Positions 919-12,600 of a DNA stretch of 64,000 bases are shown here, one piece after another; within the stretch, counting starts at the first letter, position 1; each line of letters opens with the position of its first letter. A program made the position numbers and the translations under genes. Origin of the DNA: Lasiosphaeris hirsuta (lineage: Eukaryota; Ascomycota; Sordariomycetes; Sordariales; Lasiosphaeriaceae); assembly GCA_030549175.1 (NCBI GenBank), contig JAUKUA010000004.1, forward strand, positions 4,588,001 to 4,652,000, given 5' to 3'. Under the pieces are notes generated by a model. It did not search any database. It worked only from the letters and a program-made list of their open reading frames with translations, and was not told the DNA's origin.

Positions 919-2117
919 ATGCGGAATGCGCTCTACAATGCTGTCATCGAGAAGCTGGAGCAAATTGCAACCAAATCCCGAACCTAAGCAAGCCTCTCGG
1001 GAGACATAACCTCCACCTCGAGAGGCGTGTCACCAGCTCCAGCCCGTCGTACACCAAAACGACCCTGCCACAGGCACCCGCACGCAAAATTTTGACCGAA
1101 GAAGCTATTTTCTTCGACGGGGAAGCCTTGTGGGACGATGACGGGTACGTGTTCCCTTGTCGACACCAACAACACTAACACCCATTACAGGCGCGTCGGT
1201 CGTGCTGCTGCGTTCTTCGATTCAATGTCACAATTTCACAACCGCTGCATAAAGCCCAAGATCAACAATAATGAACACCAGATCGCCATTCTGGACACAG
1301 GCATCTAGACTGACAACAACGATATACATGGGCTCTGTGACGACATGCGGGAAACACGAAGGCGCGGCGGCTGCCGCTTGTGGAGGACAGGCCCTATCCG
1401 TCCCGTGCAGTCCTTTACCGGCGACCCTGACGATACAGGCGAGGACTCGACAGGGCATGGGACACATGTCGCGTGGCTGGCGCTCAAGACTGCGCCAGAT
1501 GCAGATATTGACATAGCCAAGATCTCTCATGATATGCATTTCAGCGACAACACGGCGGTTATAAGAGTGAGATAAAGGTCGCCCTCCTTTGTCCATTGGC
1601 CTTTCTGACAGTCTCTAGGCAATTGACTGGGCACTGAAGCTAAACGTTGATATTATCAACTTGTCATTCGGCTCCGCCTACATCGACTCGGGTATCGCGG
1701 AAGCTATCGACCGGGCCGCAGTCACCAGACCACATCCGACTCTTGTTTTTGCAGCGGCGTCAAACTCCAGGCGGAACAGCTGGTCTACCTTCCCCGCCAC
1801 ACATCACAGCGTCATCGATATTCATAGCCTTGACGGCAAAGGCAACGACAACGGCGGCCTAAATCCTTCACGCCCCCCCCGGTGTCGACAGCTTTGGCAC
1901 CTTGGGTGTTGCAATCGAAATGCTTTGGAACCAGCGAATGGAGGCCAAGTCCGGGAGTTCATACGCTACCCCGATCGCGACTGAAATTGCTGCTAACAGT
2001 CTGGTCTGGCTGGCACATGCAAAAGAGAAGGCTCTTCTCGGCAAGGAGCAGTATGCGTGGCTGAGGACCACGGAAGGAATGCGATACATGTTCAGGAGGC
2101 AGTCTATTTGCCTTTGA
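919..2117 (+). pseudogene. subtilisin-like serine protease (S8), broken
   Basis: All four landmarks of a peptidase S8 domain can be read: the Asp motif (AILDTGI, about 1285-1305), the His motif (STGHGTHVA, about 1449-1475), an oxyanion Asn region (LVFAAASN, about 1741-1764) and the Ser motif (GSSYATPIA, about 1954-1980). Two normal introns fit, 1145-1190 and 1567-1618, and both keep the frame. Two breaks are seen. A TAG stop at 1306-1308 follows directly after the Asp motif. A run of eight C at 1873-1880 shifts the frame by one base between the Asn and Ser motifs. The N-terminus is also unclear: an ATG at 919 runs into a stop after 22 codons. The gene lies just upstream of a gasdermin-like gene in the same orientation. 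In fungi such proteases are known or inferred to activate gasdermins by cleavage. The C8 run could be an assembly error, but the TAG is harder to explain that way. Confidence 0.8.
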
Positions 2118-2265
2118 AAGTCGGACCTACTATTTGTTGCGCCTTAGGTTCTGTGGAGAGACGACGGTACTAACACGAACCCAGATATCACCGTCTGCGC
2201 GGTGATACGGCATGGGCTGCCACCATTTCTGCCTGCTGGGTGATTTTAGTCCGAGCTTGGAGGTG

Positions 2266-3128
2266 ATGAACCCGATCTCGCCGAATATCCCGATGTCATT
2301 CACCCGAGCAGCACGATGTGGTGGGATGTAAATTGATGATAATTCTTCTATATCTGCACCTCGCCCGGTGTTGCGAGTCTATTTGCGCGCGTTAAAACTT
2401 GAGCTGATTCCCCTCGACCGAAAATGCAGGCACCTCATCGACGAAGCCGACATCCTCCCTGTTAGCAACTTGGCGGGGTTCTCGTCGACGCGGCAAACAC
2501 TCCTCAGTGGGCGTTTTGGCCTATGGACGACATTCCTTGCTGTCCTGGGCCTACCTGCCGGCATCGATCTCGGCCTCTTTCTCGAGCGGAACTTTAATGA
2601 TGTTATCAAAGCCGGGGATCTCGAGACGCACGACTTCGTCGCTACCGACGACTATGTGAGCCAGGTCCTGGAGAAGCCCGACGTCAAGGCTTACCTCGGA
2701 GGCCGCAAGTACCGAGTTTCCGTCTCTATGGTGACGGGCCTGAAGATTGCCAAGGGCGCGTCAGTCAGTCTTGAGCAGGGCAACCAGGCTGATGTCAGTG
2801 CCAGTATTACGGGGCCCGAGGGTGTGGTCGACGCAAAGCCACTCATCCAGTTCGTCTACAACAGAACGGGTGGCATTTCGTTCGACTCGTCAACGGACTT
2901 TGTCTTGGTTTTCCGCGTGCGGCGCATCACCTTTTCTGGGTCTGAGAAGTATCCCAAACACAAGTTGCTGCTTCGAGGCACGAGCATGATATATCTACGG
3001 AACAAGCGAGAGAGGAGGCGGAGAAGGAGGGAGTTGAGGTGGAAGTAGGCAACGAAGAGGACTCGACGTGTCAGTGGATCGTGACGAGCGGTGCGTATGA
3101 TGAAGGGTTAGGGTTCTCTGGCATGTAA
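2266..3128 (+). pseudogene. gasdermin-like pore-forming cell-death protein, disrupted
   Basis: The open frame 2332-3048 shows features I associate with fungal gasdermin-like proteins (RCD-1/HET-Q1 family). There is an N-terminal segment ending in ILPVSNLAG, a hydrophobic stretch (FLAVLGLPAGIDLGLFLE), a beta-strand signature (SMVTGLKIAKGA) and a late strand FVLVFRVRRITF. The last two match the layout of the end of the gasdermin N-domain. Family proteins bind acidic membrane lipids and oligomerise into pores after a protease removes a short C-terminal tail. Breaks seen: no in-frame ATG precedes the conserved part unless one reads through a TAA at 2329-2331 from the ATG at 2266. In addition, one base appears to be missing near 2979, because the acidic tail continues in the next frame to a TAA at 3126-3128. 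The tail ends in DEGLGFSGM. The assignment rests on remembered family features and on the adjacent subtilase, not on a search. Confidence 0.62.
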
Positions 3129-8103: not shown

Positions 8104-10794
8104 TTAAATAAGAAACACCAACTCCCACCTTCGGTTTGATAACCGATTCCAGTCGTCCTCCCAGATAGCTACCTCTCCTTCCCTTGACAGCCCACCAGAT
8201 GAATGCCTCTTAACAATTAATACACTAAGCTGACCACGCTCTCTGCTTCTCTCCAAGCTATCACGCCCGATGACAATACATTCCACTCGGCGTTTCCAAT
8301 AGCTTTCATCTTCTTGTTGCTCATGCTCGTTGAAAGGCGGTGGATGCTGATCCCACATGACATCCAACTTCAAACCGTCATCTGTTCGCAAGACATAACT
8401 CTTTTCCTCGTCCTTGTCCCTCTCGTCTTTGCCCCTGGGCTCGTTCACATTGAGTTCGAGAACAAGTTCAGCAAGGCTTGTCCACACAATCAGCAATGAG
8501 AATCGTGTCTCTGGGACCAGTAGCGCTGTAGGGATATCAGAAATGCTGACGGTGGCGTGCGTGTTTTGTCTCCACAGCGGGTTTGTCCCCTTGAATGGCT
8601 TTCCATAATCGTTTCGGTAATGCCTAAACGTCTGGTTCTGCGGGATGTGCTGGATAACCAAGCTGTCGCGGCCGTCTTCGTCGCTTGCCGCTCTCATATC
8701 GTTTCTTGCAATGTGATAGAACTCTAGGCTCGCGTGCTCGCTATCGAGGTGGCCGAACACCTCGTGGAAGTACACTTGCCCCACCCAACCCACCCACGCC
8801 CAGCTAGGGAAGCAGGCTTCCACTGTCTTACTTTGGCTTCCGCCATTGCTGCCGCCGTCTTCACCATCCCTTCTCAAGACCGGGACGTCGATCTGACACC
8901 GCTCCGCCCGTCGGCGCGGCCTCACGCGGCAGCACGGCCACGTTAGCGCAACCCCAAGAAATATCTTTGGCAGACCCCACAAAAATTCGAAGCCCGTCGC
9001 CTGCGTCATGGCGCGCAGAACGCCGCTGAAGGCATAGAGGCCATCGCTCTCGCGCGTAAGGCACCGCTTGACGTAGCTGTGCACGAGACATTGATACGTC
9101 TCGTCGAAACTCTGCACCGTTGACAGGTCCCAGAGGTTTTGGAAGGCGCCCTCATAGAACGCTGGCTCGTAGATGATCGTCTGGCCTTTTTGGTGCCAAA
9201 GGGGCAACTCCCAGCATGCGTCCTCACGCCACGTCGCTTGGCGGCACTCCCAGTAGACTTGCTCAGGCGTAAAGATGAGCCAGCGCCGTGACAGAATTGC
9301 CTCCTGGAAGGTCCAGCCGCGCGTGAACCAGCGTGAGTCGCCGATTATCTCAATGTTCGTTCTCAGGGGCTCGTACGTCTGTACGAGCCACATGCGCCTA
9401 TCACCGTCAGAACCGACACCACCGTCGGCGCCGATCTCGCCTTTGGTGGTCGTGGTGTTATTGCTGCTCCCGTGACCTGCTCCGATGGCGAACGGCTCCT
9501 CTTGCTGAAAGCGTGTCCCCGGTCGAACACCGGGCAACCCGCTGAGGGCGCTATCGCCCGCCGCATTGATGATGGTGAGCACTGCGCGGCCGTAGATGGC
9601 GTCCATTCGCGGCACGAAGCGCATCTTATCGACGTCTGAGTCCTGGACGATGCACAGGCTGTCGGCCCAGAGGTACCTCTCCCCGATGCCCCTCGTGACC
9701 GTAATTGCGTCGGCGATGGTGGCCGGAATCCAGGGCGCCCCTAGTGCTCCCTCCTGCTTGAGTTCTTCGAGCGTGGCGCTCGTCAGGACGCGGAACGGTG
9801 CAGTGCCCCAGACGTAGCTCAGCGCGACCCACAAGACGTCCTCAACATGTTCCGTTTCGACCAGACACATGCTCTCGACATCGACGAGACGGATGGATTC
9901 CAAGGGGCGCGACCCGATGGGGAGCCGCCCAGGCCGACAGCCATCGTCGTGCGCGGCATCGCACAGGGCTTTCCACTTTCGAAATAGGCGCGGATCTGCC
10001 GTGAGCGGCCGTCGCCTGGCCGTGTACGGCTCGGCTTCGGGCCACGTCAGCGGGTCGTCGTCTGCGGCGTTTGCGCCTTCGAAAATGTCGGCCACCCTCG
10101 ATGGCTGCTCGCAGCTCCTCTGCAGCGTCACGCTGGGTCCGATCCAGCGCCGCGGGACAGTGGGGTCGCGCACCGTAATGTTGATCTGGATGAAGCAGAG
10201 CCTGCCGTGGATGCCGTCATCAGTGTAACCGGTGTAATCATCGACGCTCTCCCCTTCCTCGGGCAGACGCTTTGGCCACAGGCCTGCCATCTCAACGCGC
10301 GATGTCGAGAGGTCCAGGCGGCCCGGTGAACCGAAATTTTGCGTTGCCCACTGCACAAACGCAGACCATATCTTGGCGCATAGAAAGCAGGCGCTGGCGT
10401 CTTCTTGGACATCAGTCAGTCGGCGATGCGGTAGATCATCCAGCAAGGCCTCGGCGTGTTTAGACTGGTCACTGGGGCTCCGCGTTTGGGTCTCGCCGTC
10501 GTCTTGGGTAGCGAAAACCAAGTCGGGAGGAAGCTTCGCAGCACCACTTTCATCTTCAGACAATAAATTGCCATCGCCATGACCTGGCTCGCCATTTTTT
10601 TGCCTTTCAAGCAGGTCTCTGAACTCTTGTAGCCAGGCGTCCTGTCGACGAGACCGGAACTTCGCATCGGAATTTGGCTCAAGATATCCGACCCCTTGTA
10701 TGCCGCCATTAGCTTCCCACTCGTCACACCACGAGCAGAAGCTCCATCTCGTGGCCACATCAAACTCTACCTCCGGTGGTGGCATTTGCACCAC
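8104..10794 (-). CDS. HET-domain (heterokaryon incompatibility) protein
   Basis: A single-exon open frame of 896 codons with ATG at 10794. The HET domain lies at about residues 315-500 and shows the family's blocks in order: ALSYVWG, then IADAITVTRGIGERYLWADS with LCIVQD, then DAIYGRAVLTIINAAGD, and finally RGWTFQEAILSRRWLIFT. The N-terminus carries a small Cys motif (FCSWCDEW) often seen in such proteins, and the C-terminal 400 residues have no domain I recognise. HET proteins trigger cell death when incompatible fungal cells fuse, or act in NLR-like immunity. The domain is probably a TIR-like fold. No frame break is seen, so this is the one intact HET gene of the window. The GC-rich codon use differs from the AT-rich flanks. 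Confidence 0.95.
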   Translation of the reverse strand: MVQMPPPEVEFDVATRWSFCSWCDEWEANGGIQGVGYLEPNSDAKFRSRRQDAWLQEFRDLLERQKNGEPGHGDGNLLSEDESGAAKLPPDLVFATQDDGETQTRSPSDQSKHAEALLDDLPHRRLTDVQEDASACFLCAKIWSAFVQWATQNFGSPGRLDLSTSRVEMAGLWPKRLPEEGESVDDYTGYTDDGIHGRLCFIQINITVRDPTVPRRWIGPSVTLQRSCEQPSRVADIFEGANAADDDPLTWPEAEPYTARRRPLTADPRLFRKWKALCDAAHDDGCRPGRLPIGSRPLESIRLVDVESMCLVETEHVEDVLWVALSYVWGTAPFRVLTSATLEELKQEGALGAPWIPATIADAITVTRGIGERYLWADSLCIVQDSDVDKMRFVPRMDAIYGRAVLTIINAAGDSALSGLPGVRPGTRFQQEEPFAIGAGHGSSNNTTTTKGEIGADGGVGSDGDRRMWLVQTYEPLRTNIEIIGDSRWFTRGWTFQEAILSRRWLIFTPEQVYWECRQATWREDACWELPLWHQKGQTIIYEPAFYEGAFQNLWDLSTVQSFDETYQCLVHSYVKRCLTRESDGLYAFSGVLRAMTQATGFEFLWGLPKIFLGVALTWPCCRVRPRRRAERCQIDVPVLRRDGEDGGSNGGSQSKTVEACFPSWAWVGWVGQVYFHEVFGHLDSEHASLEFYHIARNDMRAASDEDGRDSLVIQHIPQNQTFRHYRNDYGKPFKGTNPLWRQNTHATVSISDIPTALLVPETRFSLLIVWTSLAELVLELNVNEPRGKDERDKDEEKSYVLRTDDGLKLDVMWDQHPPPFNEHEQQEDESYWKRRVECIVIGRDSLERSRERGQLSVLIVKRHSSGGLSREGEVAIWEDDWNRLSNRRWELVFLI

Positions 10795-12600
10795 TGATAG
10801 TCGGCTTCTCTAGGATCAGTTCGGAATGTTTGAAGATCAGACCGTTCGGAACGCCCGACGAGATGAGGATGCCATGTAGCCATGCAGAACAGGCGAAGGC
10901 CCCTCATTGCTATAAATAACGCAATATCACGTGTTTCGTCCACCCTCCCTTCCACAGCTTAACATCGCCAAATTTCAGCATCAATGAAGAGTATTCACTA
11001 GTTTTTCCTTTCCCGAATTTCTTGTCAGACAGGAAAGGGCTGTGAGACGTCTTAACCGGGTCGAGGGGATAAAATTCCATAGCTTTAGGGATCCCTAGCT
11101 TTATCATACCTCATAGGCGAATACATCATATAGGCGAAAAGCACTCGCTCCCTTAGCAAACTGAGTGGAGGCCGCATATAAATACATGATAAAGTCGGGT
11201 AATGACCTGTTCTCCTTTACCCTGTCTCTCAACCTCTGATCCCCAGTCCACAACCCCCCCGCCGCGGCGTAAGAGGTTGCAATAGCGCGCAGAGTATCCC
11301 GCCCTCCTTCACCTCCTTCTTATCGACCCCATGTTCGTCCTGACACGTGTACCCGCTAAAGGCACGCCATCACACCACAAGCCCCTAAACCAGGAAGACA
11401 CTTTGAACACCGTTGGAAGGAGAGGAGGTGCTCAGGATGTGGATGGTGATAGACACCTGCTTTTCTCCCCCCCCCCTCCCCTAGATCTGCAAGCTAACTG
11501 GATATAGGGCATTTGCTCCTGAAAAAGCTGTCAGATATAACAGCAATTACCACCGCATAGAAGTATTTAATGTTCCGTGCTTTTAGTGTAGTGGTAATTA
11601 GTGACCTAAGCGCTCGGACGGAGGATCTCGGTCAACCCCAACTTCGCAGATAAACCAAGGAAAACCGGCAATCTGAAGACTAATATCGCACGAACCAGCC
11701 CACCGGAACTGACAACGGCTTGGATACATTTGCCGTTATCACAGAGAACCGTTTTGCCACTCCCTTTATTTTTCTCACTTCTTAGCACTAAATGCAGCTC
11801 ACGGGTATCTTTACTCCGGGCTGGCATTCCTCGTAGTATCCCCTTGGCATTGTATGGACTTCATAATTTCCTAGGAAAAAGAGGGTAGCATGTTACTTTG
11901 TAGTTATCAACTAGTAGACTAATAGCACTTGGGGTTCTTTTTACTAAATAAACTCTTAAAACCGCCTCCCCGTAACACACTCTAGTCTGTTGATGTCAAA
12001 AAGAAAGGGGCTCTGGCAAGGGGCCAGAACTGTCAGAATCTCTGCACACTAGATTCGGTAGAATTGATGGGGTTGCAGCAGGCTCCTGAGGCGAAATGCG
12101 GTTTTGCGAGCGCGTTCCCTACCAGTTCCTGCTGAATAGTGTCTGCTGAGATTATTACATACAATCCAAAGTCTTAGTTTAAGCGCTTTCAGCATATGGT
12201 TTAATGAATGCTAGAATGCAGTACTATTTTTTCCATGTGTTCCTAAAGCCTTCTTATGTCCTAGTATTTATTACTGTATAGTACTCGGGGCGAGTCAGGA
12301 AAACAAGTCAGGACATGTCATGTTTGTATATATCGAATTAATACTTCCTGTGGTCTTTCGGGATGTCACCTTTGTAAGTGCTTGTTTGTGAAGGTTTAGC
12401 GCTCGAATTATCCTTTCAGCATAGAATGTCCCTTTCGATTACTTGCTTTGTCTGTTCCCCTTTATATATAGAGAGATTATTTAGCAACGCCGACGTGCGG
12501 TGTTGTTGTGGAGATAGAAGGCTGCGACCCTCCTGCCAGCCCCGGGTGAAGAAAACTTGTCAGGAGAACGCCGGCCCTCTCCCCATTAGAAGCCCTTCGG
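10795..12600. other. long intergenic, no gene seen
   Basis: Upstream of the HET gene. It holds poly-C runs (for example near 11467-11476) and AT-rich stretches. Short open frames on both strands have neither coding character nor domains. The HET promoter should lie in the first few hundred bases, but no specific element can be named. Confidence 0.5.

Follow-up and report, generated by a model that had tools for sequence, protein, structure and literature searches.

S8 serine proteases and gasdermins form a known class of gene pairs in fungi. Two-gene clusters consisting of a HET-Q2-like (Q2L) S8 protease gene and a fungal gasdermin (fGSDM) gene were described by Clave et al. (2022), as reported in two reviews (PMC10197012, PMC12881547). 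Section 15 of PMC10197012 states that about 80% of fGSDM genes are clustered with protease genes, ~63% with S8 genes, and that 19% lie near CHAT genes; it also attributes birth-and-death evolution to fGSDM genes. The reviews further describe short inhibitory tails in microbial gasdermins and, for Podospora anserina, the trimming of ~5 kDa off the C-terminus of HET-Q1 (278 aa) by HET-Q2 (388 aa). The genes het-Q1 and het-Q2 are presented there as idiomorphs that occupy one locus in different strains. RCD-1 of Neurospora crassa is described as being activated by the meeting of two antagonistic alleles and not by protease cleavage. Our comparisons draw on parts of PMC12881547, PMC10989679, PMC9262711, PMC11138114, and PMC10197012.

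Here, we analyzed a window, that is, a whole stretch of 64,000 nucleotides from Lasiosphaeris hirsuta (C9:4588001-4652000), within an assembly of 44.4 Mb and 14 contigs. The identity of two genes at 919..3128, their order, introns, and catalytic motifs, and several breaks in each of them were established. We conclude, with a probability of about 0.93, that this region is what remains, as pseudogenes, of a two-gene death cluster of fungi, in which a Q2L S8 serine protease gene is closely followed by an fGSDM gene on the same strand. The locus is thus a decayed member of the class, with both halves broken. A DNA-level search of the genome found no second copy of 919-3128. The features are as follows.

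919..1144, + strand: subtilase exon 1, decayed; frame 1 runs from ATG 919 only to TAA 985-987, and frame 3 carries the 3' part, which ends in FFDGEALWDDD
1145..1190, + strand: intron 1, GT-AG, 46 bases, downstream of which frame 1 replaces frame 3
1191..1566, + strand: subtilase exon 2 with DTG (Asp) and GHGTH (His), broken by TAG 1306-1308
1567..1618, + strand: intron 2, GT-AG, 52 bases
1619..2243, + strand: subtilase exon 3 with AAASN and GSSYATP (Ser); frame change at ~1868-1880, TGA 2115-2117, TAG 2145-2147, end at TGA 2241-2243
2326..2376, + strand: degraded gasdermin start; ATG 2326 is followed immediately by TAA 2329-2331, and the relatives' T-Y-I-V-A-P-N-F stretch is unreadable
2377..2997, + strand: gasdermin pore-domain part, frame 1, with homology to relatives; open frame 2332-3045, stop TAG 3046-3048
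2982..3128, + strand: gasdermin acidic C-terminal tail, frame 3, stop 3126-3128; frame change and shortened linker at ~2976-2997

The Q2L and fGSDM clusters are a better comparison for this locus than either HET-Q1/HET-Q2 or RCD-1. As in these clusters, an S8 subtilase gene adjoins a short-tailed gasdermin gene, and two pairs of relatives appear to share contigs (see below). Unlike them, the window pair is broken in both genes, and the window subtilase pieces gave no Pfam match to ANK, TPR, or WD40. The Podospora proteins are similar in size, with 266-298 aa in 15 of the 17 relatives of the window gasdermin (P0016 has 245 aa and P0018 159 aa) and ~400 codons in the window subtilase (919-2243 minus introns, by arithmetic). 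In contrast to the idiomorphs, however, the two genes here are neighbors in a single genome, and the gasdermin family profile ranks RCD-1 above HET-Q1. RCD-1 is the best match in sequence and fold among solved structures, the fold being taken from low-pLDDT models, but its mode of activation differs. A first-pass annotation of this DNA had drawn on both systems. Its statement that fungal gasdermin genes often adjoin protease genes agrees with the frequencies given in PMC10197012, and HET-Q2 does act on the HET-Q1 C-terminus according to the reviews; the two Podospora genes are not neighbors, however, and RCD-1 is, as described there, not activated by a protease.

The upstream gene is, by homology and motifs, a subtilase of peptidase family S8, as the first-pass annotation had proposed. 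Three pieces of it are collinear with the open relative P0021 (319 aa), in the order 1225-1566 (residues 1-117, E 4.3e-24), 1619-1879 (residues 118-204, E 3.4e-36), and 1878-2228 (residues 204-318, E 1.3e-29). Intron 2 falls exactly at the junction of residues 117 and 118. The passage of the reading from frame 3 into frame 1 over intron 1 fits, by eye, a phase-2 intron. The collinear pieces contain DTG, GHGTH, and GSSYATP in this order, which we take to be the Asp, His, and Ser catalytic sites of subtilases. Weak matches to Pfam PF00082, all below the curated cut-off, were obtained for three of five tested pieces (E 0.049, 2.3e-4, and 1.9e-3). Exon 1 aligns weakly with P0031 (26% over 76 columns, 906-1127, frame 3). 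On the opposite strand, a 236-aa frame without Pfam match (236-943) overlaps the subtilase start region. At the 3' end, the gene reaches beyond its first description, because homology passes both TGA 2115-2117 and TAG 2145-2147 and ends only at about 2228-2234, with the frame closing at TGA 2241-2243. The intergenic gap therefore shrinks from the ~200 bp given initially to ~80 bases (stop 2241-2243 to ATG 2326).

Homologs and matches to solved structures identify the frame at 2332-3048 as a fungal gasdermin, which bears out the gasdermin N-domain features ascribed to it earlier. Besides the window frame itself, 17 homologs were found, with E-values of 2.2e-67 to 3.4e-19 and identities of 35-59%. 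Twelve of them come from named fungi (Fusarium, Xylaria, Nemania, Ustulina, Ilyonectria, and Gaeumannomyces) and five from unnamed sequence sets. Against the profile of its relatives, the window frame scored E 1.5e-87. This family profile was built from 15 of the 17 relatives, leaving out the window as well as P0001, P0016, and P0018. Among 1766 frames of at least 40 aa from the window and six loci, eight had a profile match with E no higher than 10; all eight belong to gasdermin loci, and seven had E below 1e-5. Five of the six loci had been chosen through a gasdermin match.

RCD-1 was the best solved-structure match by single sequence, by family profile, and by fold. A search of 177,635 PDB sequences with the single sequence placed Neurospora RCD-1-2 (E 0.014) and RCD-1-1 (E 0.021) at the top; the family profile returned the same two chains at 7.9e-9 and 9.3e-9, and a HET-Q1 pore chain at 0.01. 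When the AlphaFold model of the window frame (mean pLDDT 44.7) was submitted to Foldseek, the first 17 ranks and rank 19 went to chains of RCD-1 or bacterial gasdermins, and rank 18 to a chain of a GSDMB complex. With the model of relative P0003 (mean pLDDT 41.2), ranks 1-18 were gasdermins. Since both models are poor and all listed TM-scores were below 0.5, the fold evidence serves as support and not as a stand-alone argument. Pfam-A holds no family that matches the window gasdermin frame.

The short acidic tail noted after the pore domain is present, matching profile positions 231-279 at 2946-3125 with E 4.1e-7 (49% over 37 columns against P0004, E 0.14 on its own). It is not in line with the core, however, since it lies in frame 3. 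Read onward, frame 1 yields a run of basic residues in place of the acidic tail, and the variable linker between core and tail is, by eye, shorter than in the relatives.

Breaks were found in both partners, as the first-pass annotation had stated, and its central proposal of a decayed subtilase adjoining a decayed gasdermin-family gene is supported by the homology of both genes and the lesions in both. The outcome that it had named as refuting it, a frame lacking any gasdermin profile or fold match, did not occur. The subtilase carries TAG 1306-1308 inside the homologous region, the frame change at ~1868-1880, and TGA 2115-2117 and TAG 2145-2147 near the 3' end. With three in-frame stops and a frame change, it has no continuous open frame after splicing and is, on this reading, a pseudogene, a non-working member of the subtilase family. 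A second frame change is perhaps present in exon 1 (ATG 919, TAA 985-987); it is the least certain of the lesions. The gasdermin gene, as assembled, is broken by a TAA right behind its ATG and by a frame change where the acidic tail follows, and its N-terminus is degraded. Its relatives begin with a stretch like M-x-x-T-K-T-Y-I-V-A-P-N-F; behind ATG 2326 and the TAA, the following 15 codons resemble them only faintly, and core homology spans 2377 to 2991. As assembled, neither gene can yield a whole product by ordinary decoding, and the locus is therefore very probably inactive.

A sequencing error could account for the frame change at 1868-1880, where eight C follow one another, and one may ask whether the living fungus has an intact pair that was broken only by the assembly. 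We consider this extremely improbable. The stops at 1306, 2115, and 2145 and the TAA behind ATG 2326 are not easily produced by single-base indels, and neither are the degraded N-terminus and the shortened linker. Moreover, a general assembly error is disfavored because other window genes have long open frames (a 901-aa HET frame, a 559-aa tyrosinase, and a 380-aa DUF1996 protein).

Part of the gasdermin gene has nevertheless stayed open. Positions 2332-3045 form a single frame of 238 codons, and the GC content by codon position in the core (0.585/0.400/0.698 at 2377-2991) is a strong signal that resembles that of other window genes. Rows P0001, P0016, and P0018 were dropped before invariant columns were counted and a 16-row tree was built. 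The window gasdermin keeps 26 of the 32 columns invariant in the 15 other rows, and three of the six lost columns are located at the broken ends; of the relatives, 14 of 15 lost 0-3 such columns and the divergent P0017 lost seven. The open frame, its codon-position signal, and the retained columns would be compatible with a frame still used for a shortened protein with a new role, made from an alternative start or a spliced message. Such use is nonetheless very unlikely. The only in-frame ATGs, at 2728 and 2986, lie past more than half of the core, the N-terminal part and the tail are lost, and a tail-less, free pore domain would presumably damage the cell.

The same combination of genes seems to be linked in other genomes as well, because the contigs of two gasdermin relatives match those of two subtilase relatives exactly in size. 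P0002 and P0023 each come from one contig of 10,933 bases, and P0004 and P0025 each come from one of 7,502 bases. In the P0021 search, in which P0021 itself came first, P0023 and P0025 ranked second and fourth. P0002 is the sister of the window gasdermin in the 16-row tree (support 0.83), and P0023 matches the window subtilase pieces at 58-60%. For the other 15 of the 17 gasdermin relatives, including all 12 named ones, no subtilase partner on a same-sized contig was found among the best 120 of 153 matches, in searches covering proteins of 0.55-1.75 times the query length.

Within the genome, P0003 as query found six gasdermin-like places at E up to 1, including the window; four had E-values below 0.001, and the others 0.002 and 0.2. 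The family profile backs all six, the window contributing two of the seven frames below 1e-5. At L017:4562-6924, an open gasdermin-like frame lies tail-to-tail with an open 460-aa S8 frame (E 1.9e-7), and this pair is apparently intact. The open gasdermin-like frame at L018:4379-5326 is arranged head-to-head with a large frame that ends in a CHAT domain (E 2.1e-33; L018:1-4296 / L019:5571-9899). Comparison with P0021 and P0022 found no S8 gene in the ~10 kb around L003, L015, and L016, and the Pfam-scanned frames at L015 and L016 contained no CHAT domain. The genome holds 32 S8 stretches over the cut-off; that of L017 is among them, and the window's broken one is not. About 0.09 S8 neighbors within 10 kb of the six gasdermin loci would be expected by chance, as calculated by hand. 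Pfam gave no match for the four paralogous gasdermin frames scanned, and three paralogs searched singly against the PDB had none at E up to 1. The paralogs are therefore named on the strength of the family profile and, in two cases, also of protease neighbors. L003:3823-4513 is a second gasdermin remnant, which stops before the last conserved core block and has a cut Arf-type GTPase piece nearby.

Other genes of death-related families occur around the pair. The 901-aa frame with a HET domain (E 1.9e-29) is located ~5 kb away at 8107-10809 on the minus strand, and a HeLo domain (E 8.6e-26) with DUF7580 lies ~5 kb upstream of the subtilase (L014:3954-5702, C9:4581954-4583702). Several subtilase relatives among the matches listed combine DUF7580 and S8 (PF24476,PF00082). 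The genome has at least 150 HET stretches. We considered a "death-gene island" and rejected it: two of the six gasdermin loci have a HET stretch within 10 kb versus ~0.4 expected by hand arithmetic, which is not significant (P about 0.06; based on the 150 listed HET stretches, with 150 of 380 candidates scored). Internal stops, some of which may be introns, are found in 13 of the 150 listed HET stretches and 7 of 25 HeLo stretches; other death-gene families may also be decaying.

Because the base composition is still coding-like and identity to the relatives persists in most invariant columns, we infer that the decay is fairly recent, and it looks neutral. Repeat-induced point mutation (RIP) is not supported as its cause. 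TA/AT is 0.62 at 919-2240 and 0.72 at 2332-3128, compared with 0.83 for the window, and the second RIP index is 1.25 and 1.00, respectively, compared with 1.17; only the value of 1.00 leans toward RIP. Faster evolution of the core was likewise dismissed as a mark of decay: despite the six lost columns, the window gasdermin has an ordinary branch of 0.256 in the tree, which indicates at most a slight relaxation. The expectation of the first-pass annotation that a toxic pore-former and its activator are lost together for a reason is not shown here, as ordinary decay of both halves explains the breaks equally well.

A special case of the pseudogene reading, and not its opposite, is that the locus represents a null allele of a living allorecognition polymorphism. 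Other strains would then keep a working pair, and the broken haplotype would be held because it escapes the death reaction. Precedents are described in parts of the literature cited above, with intact and pseudogenized het-Vb copies segregating in Neurospora and presence/absence alleles at hetB and hetE of Aspergillus fumigatus. The coding-like GC pattern and the mostly kept core residues also suggest a recent loss. Several separate lesions in both genes, however, look like drift after loss rather than one selected null, and we regard such a polymorphism as unlikely. Still more speculative is the idea that the broken pair is a death-module null haplotype, one side of a standing polymorphism, that rises by disarming gasdermin-based rejection, with protease and pore-former lost in an order that never endangered the cell and at no time left a tail-less gasdermin with an intact start. 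If it were true, the order of breaks across strains would reveal how fungi disarm such switches.

For the pseudogene remnant, the working of the ancestral pair can be outlined by analogy with relatives and published systems, from which tail cleavage, pore formation, and biological role are inferred. A triggered protease most likely cut the gasdermin between the pore domain and the short acidic tail. The freed pore domain would have inserted into the plasma membrane and killed the compartment, for instance upon fusion with a non-self or infected strain.

The 12 named relatives, each annotated just as "hypothetical protein," can be proposed as gasdermins. The locus itself captures the birth-and-death turnover of fungal gasdermins at the stage of death, in a genome where an S8 pair and a CHAT pair are still open and available for comparison.
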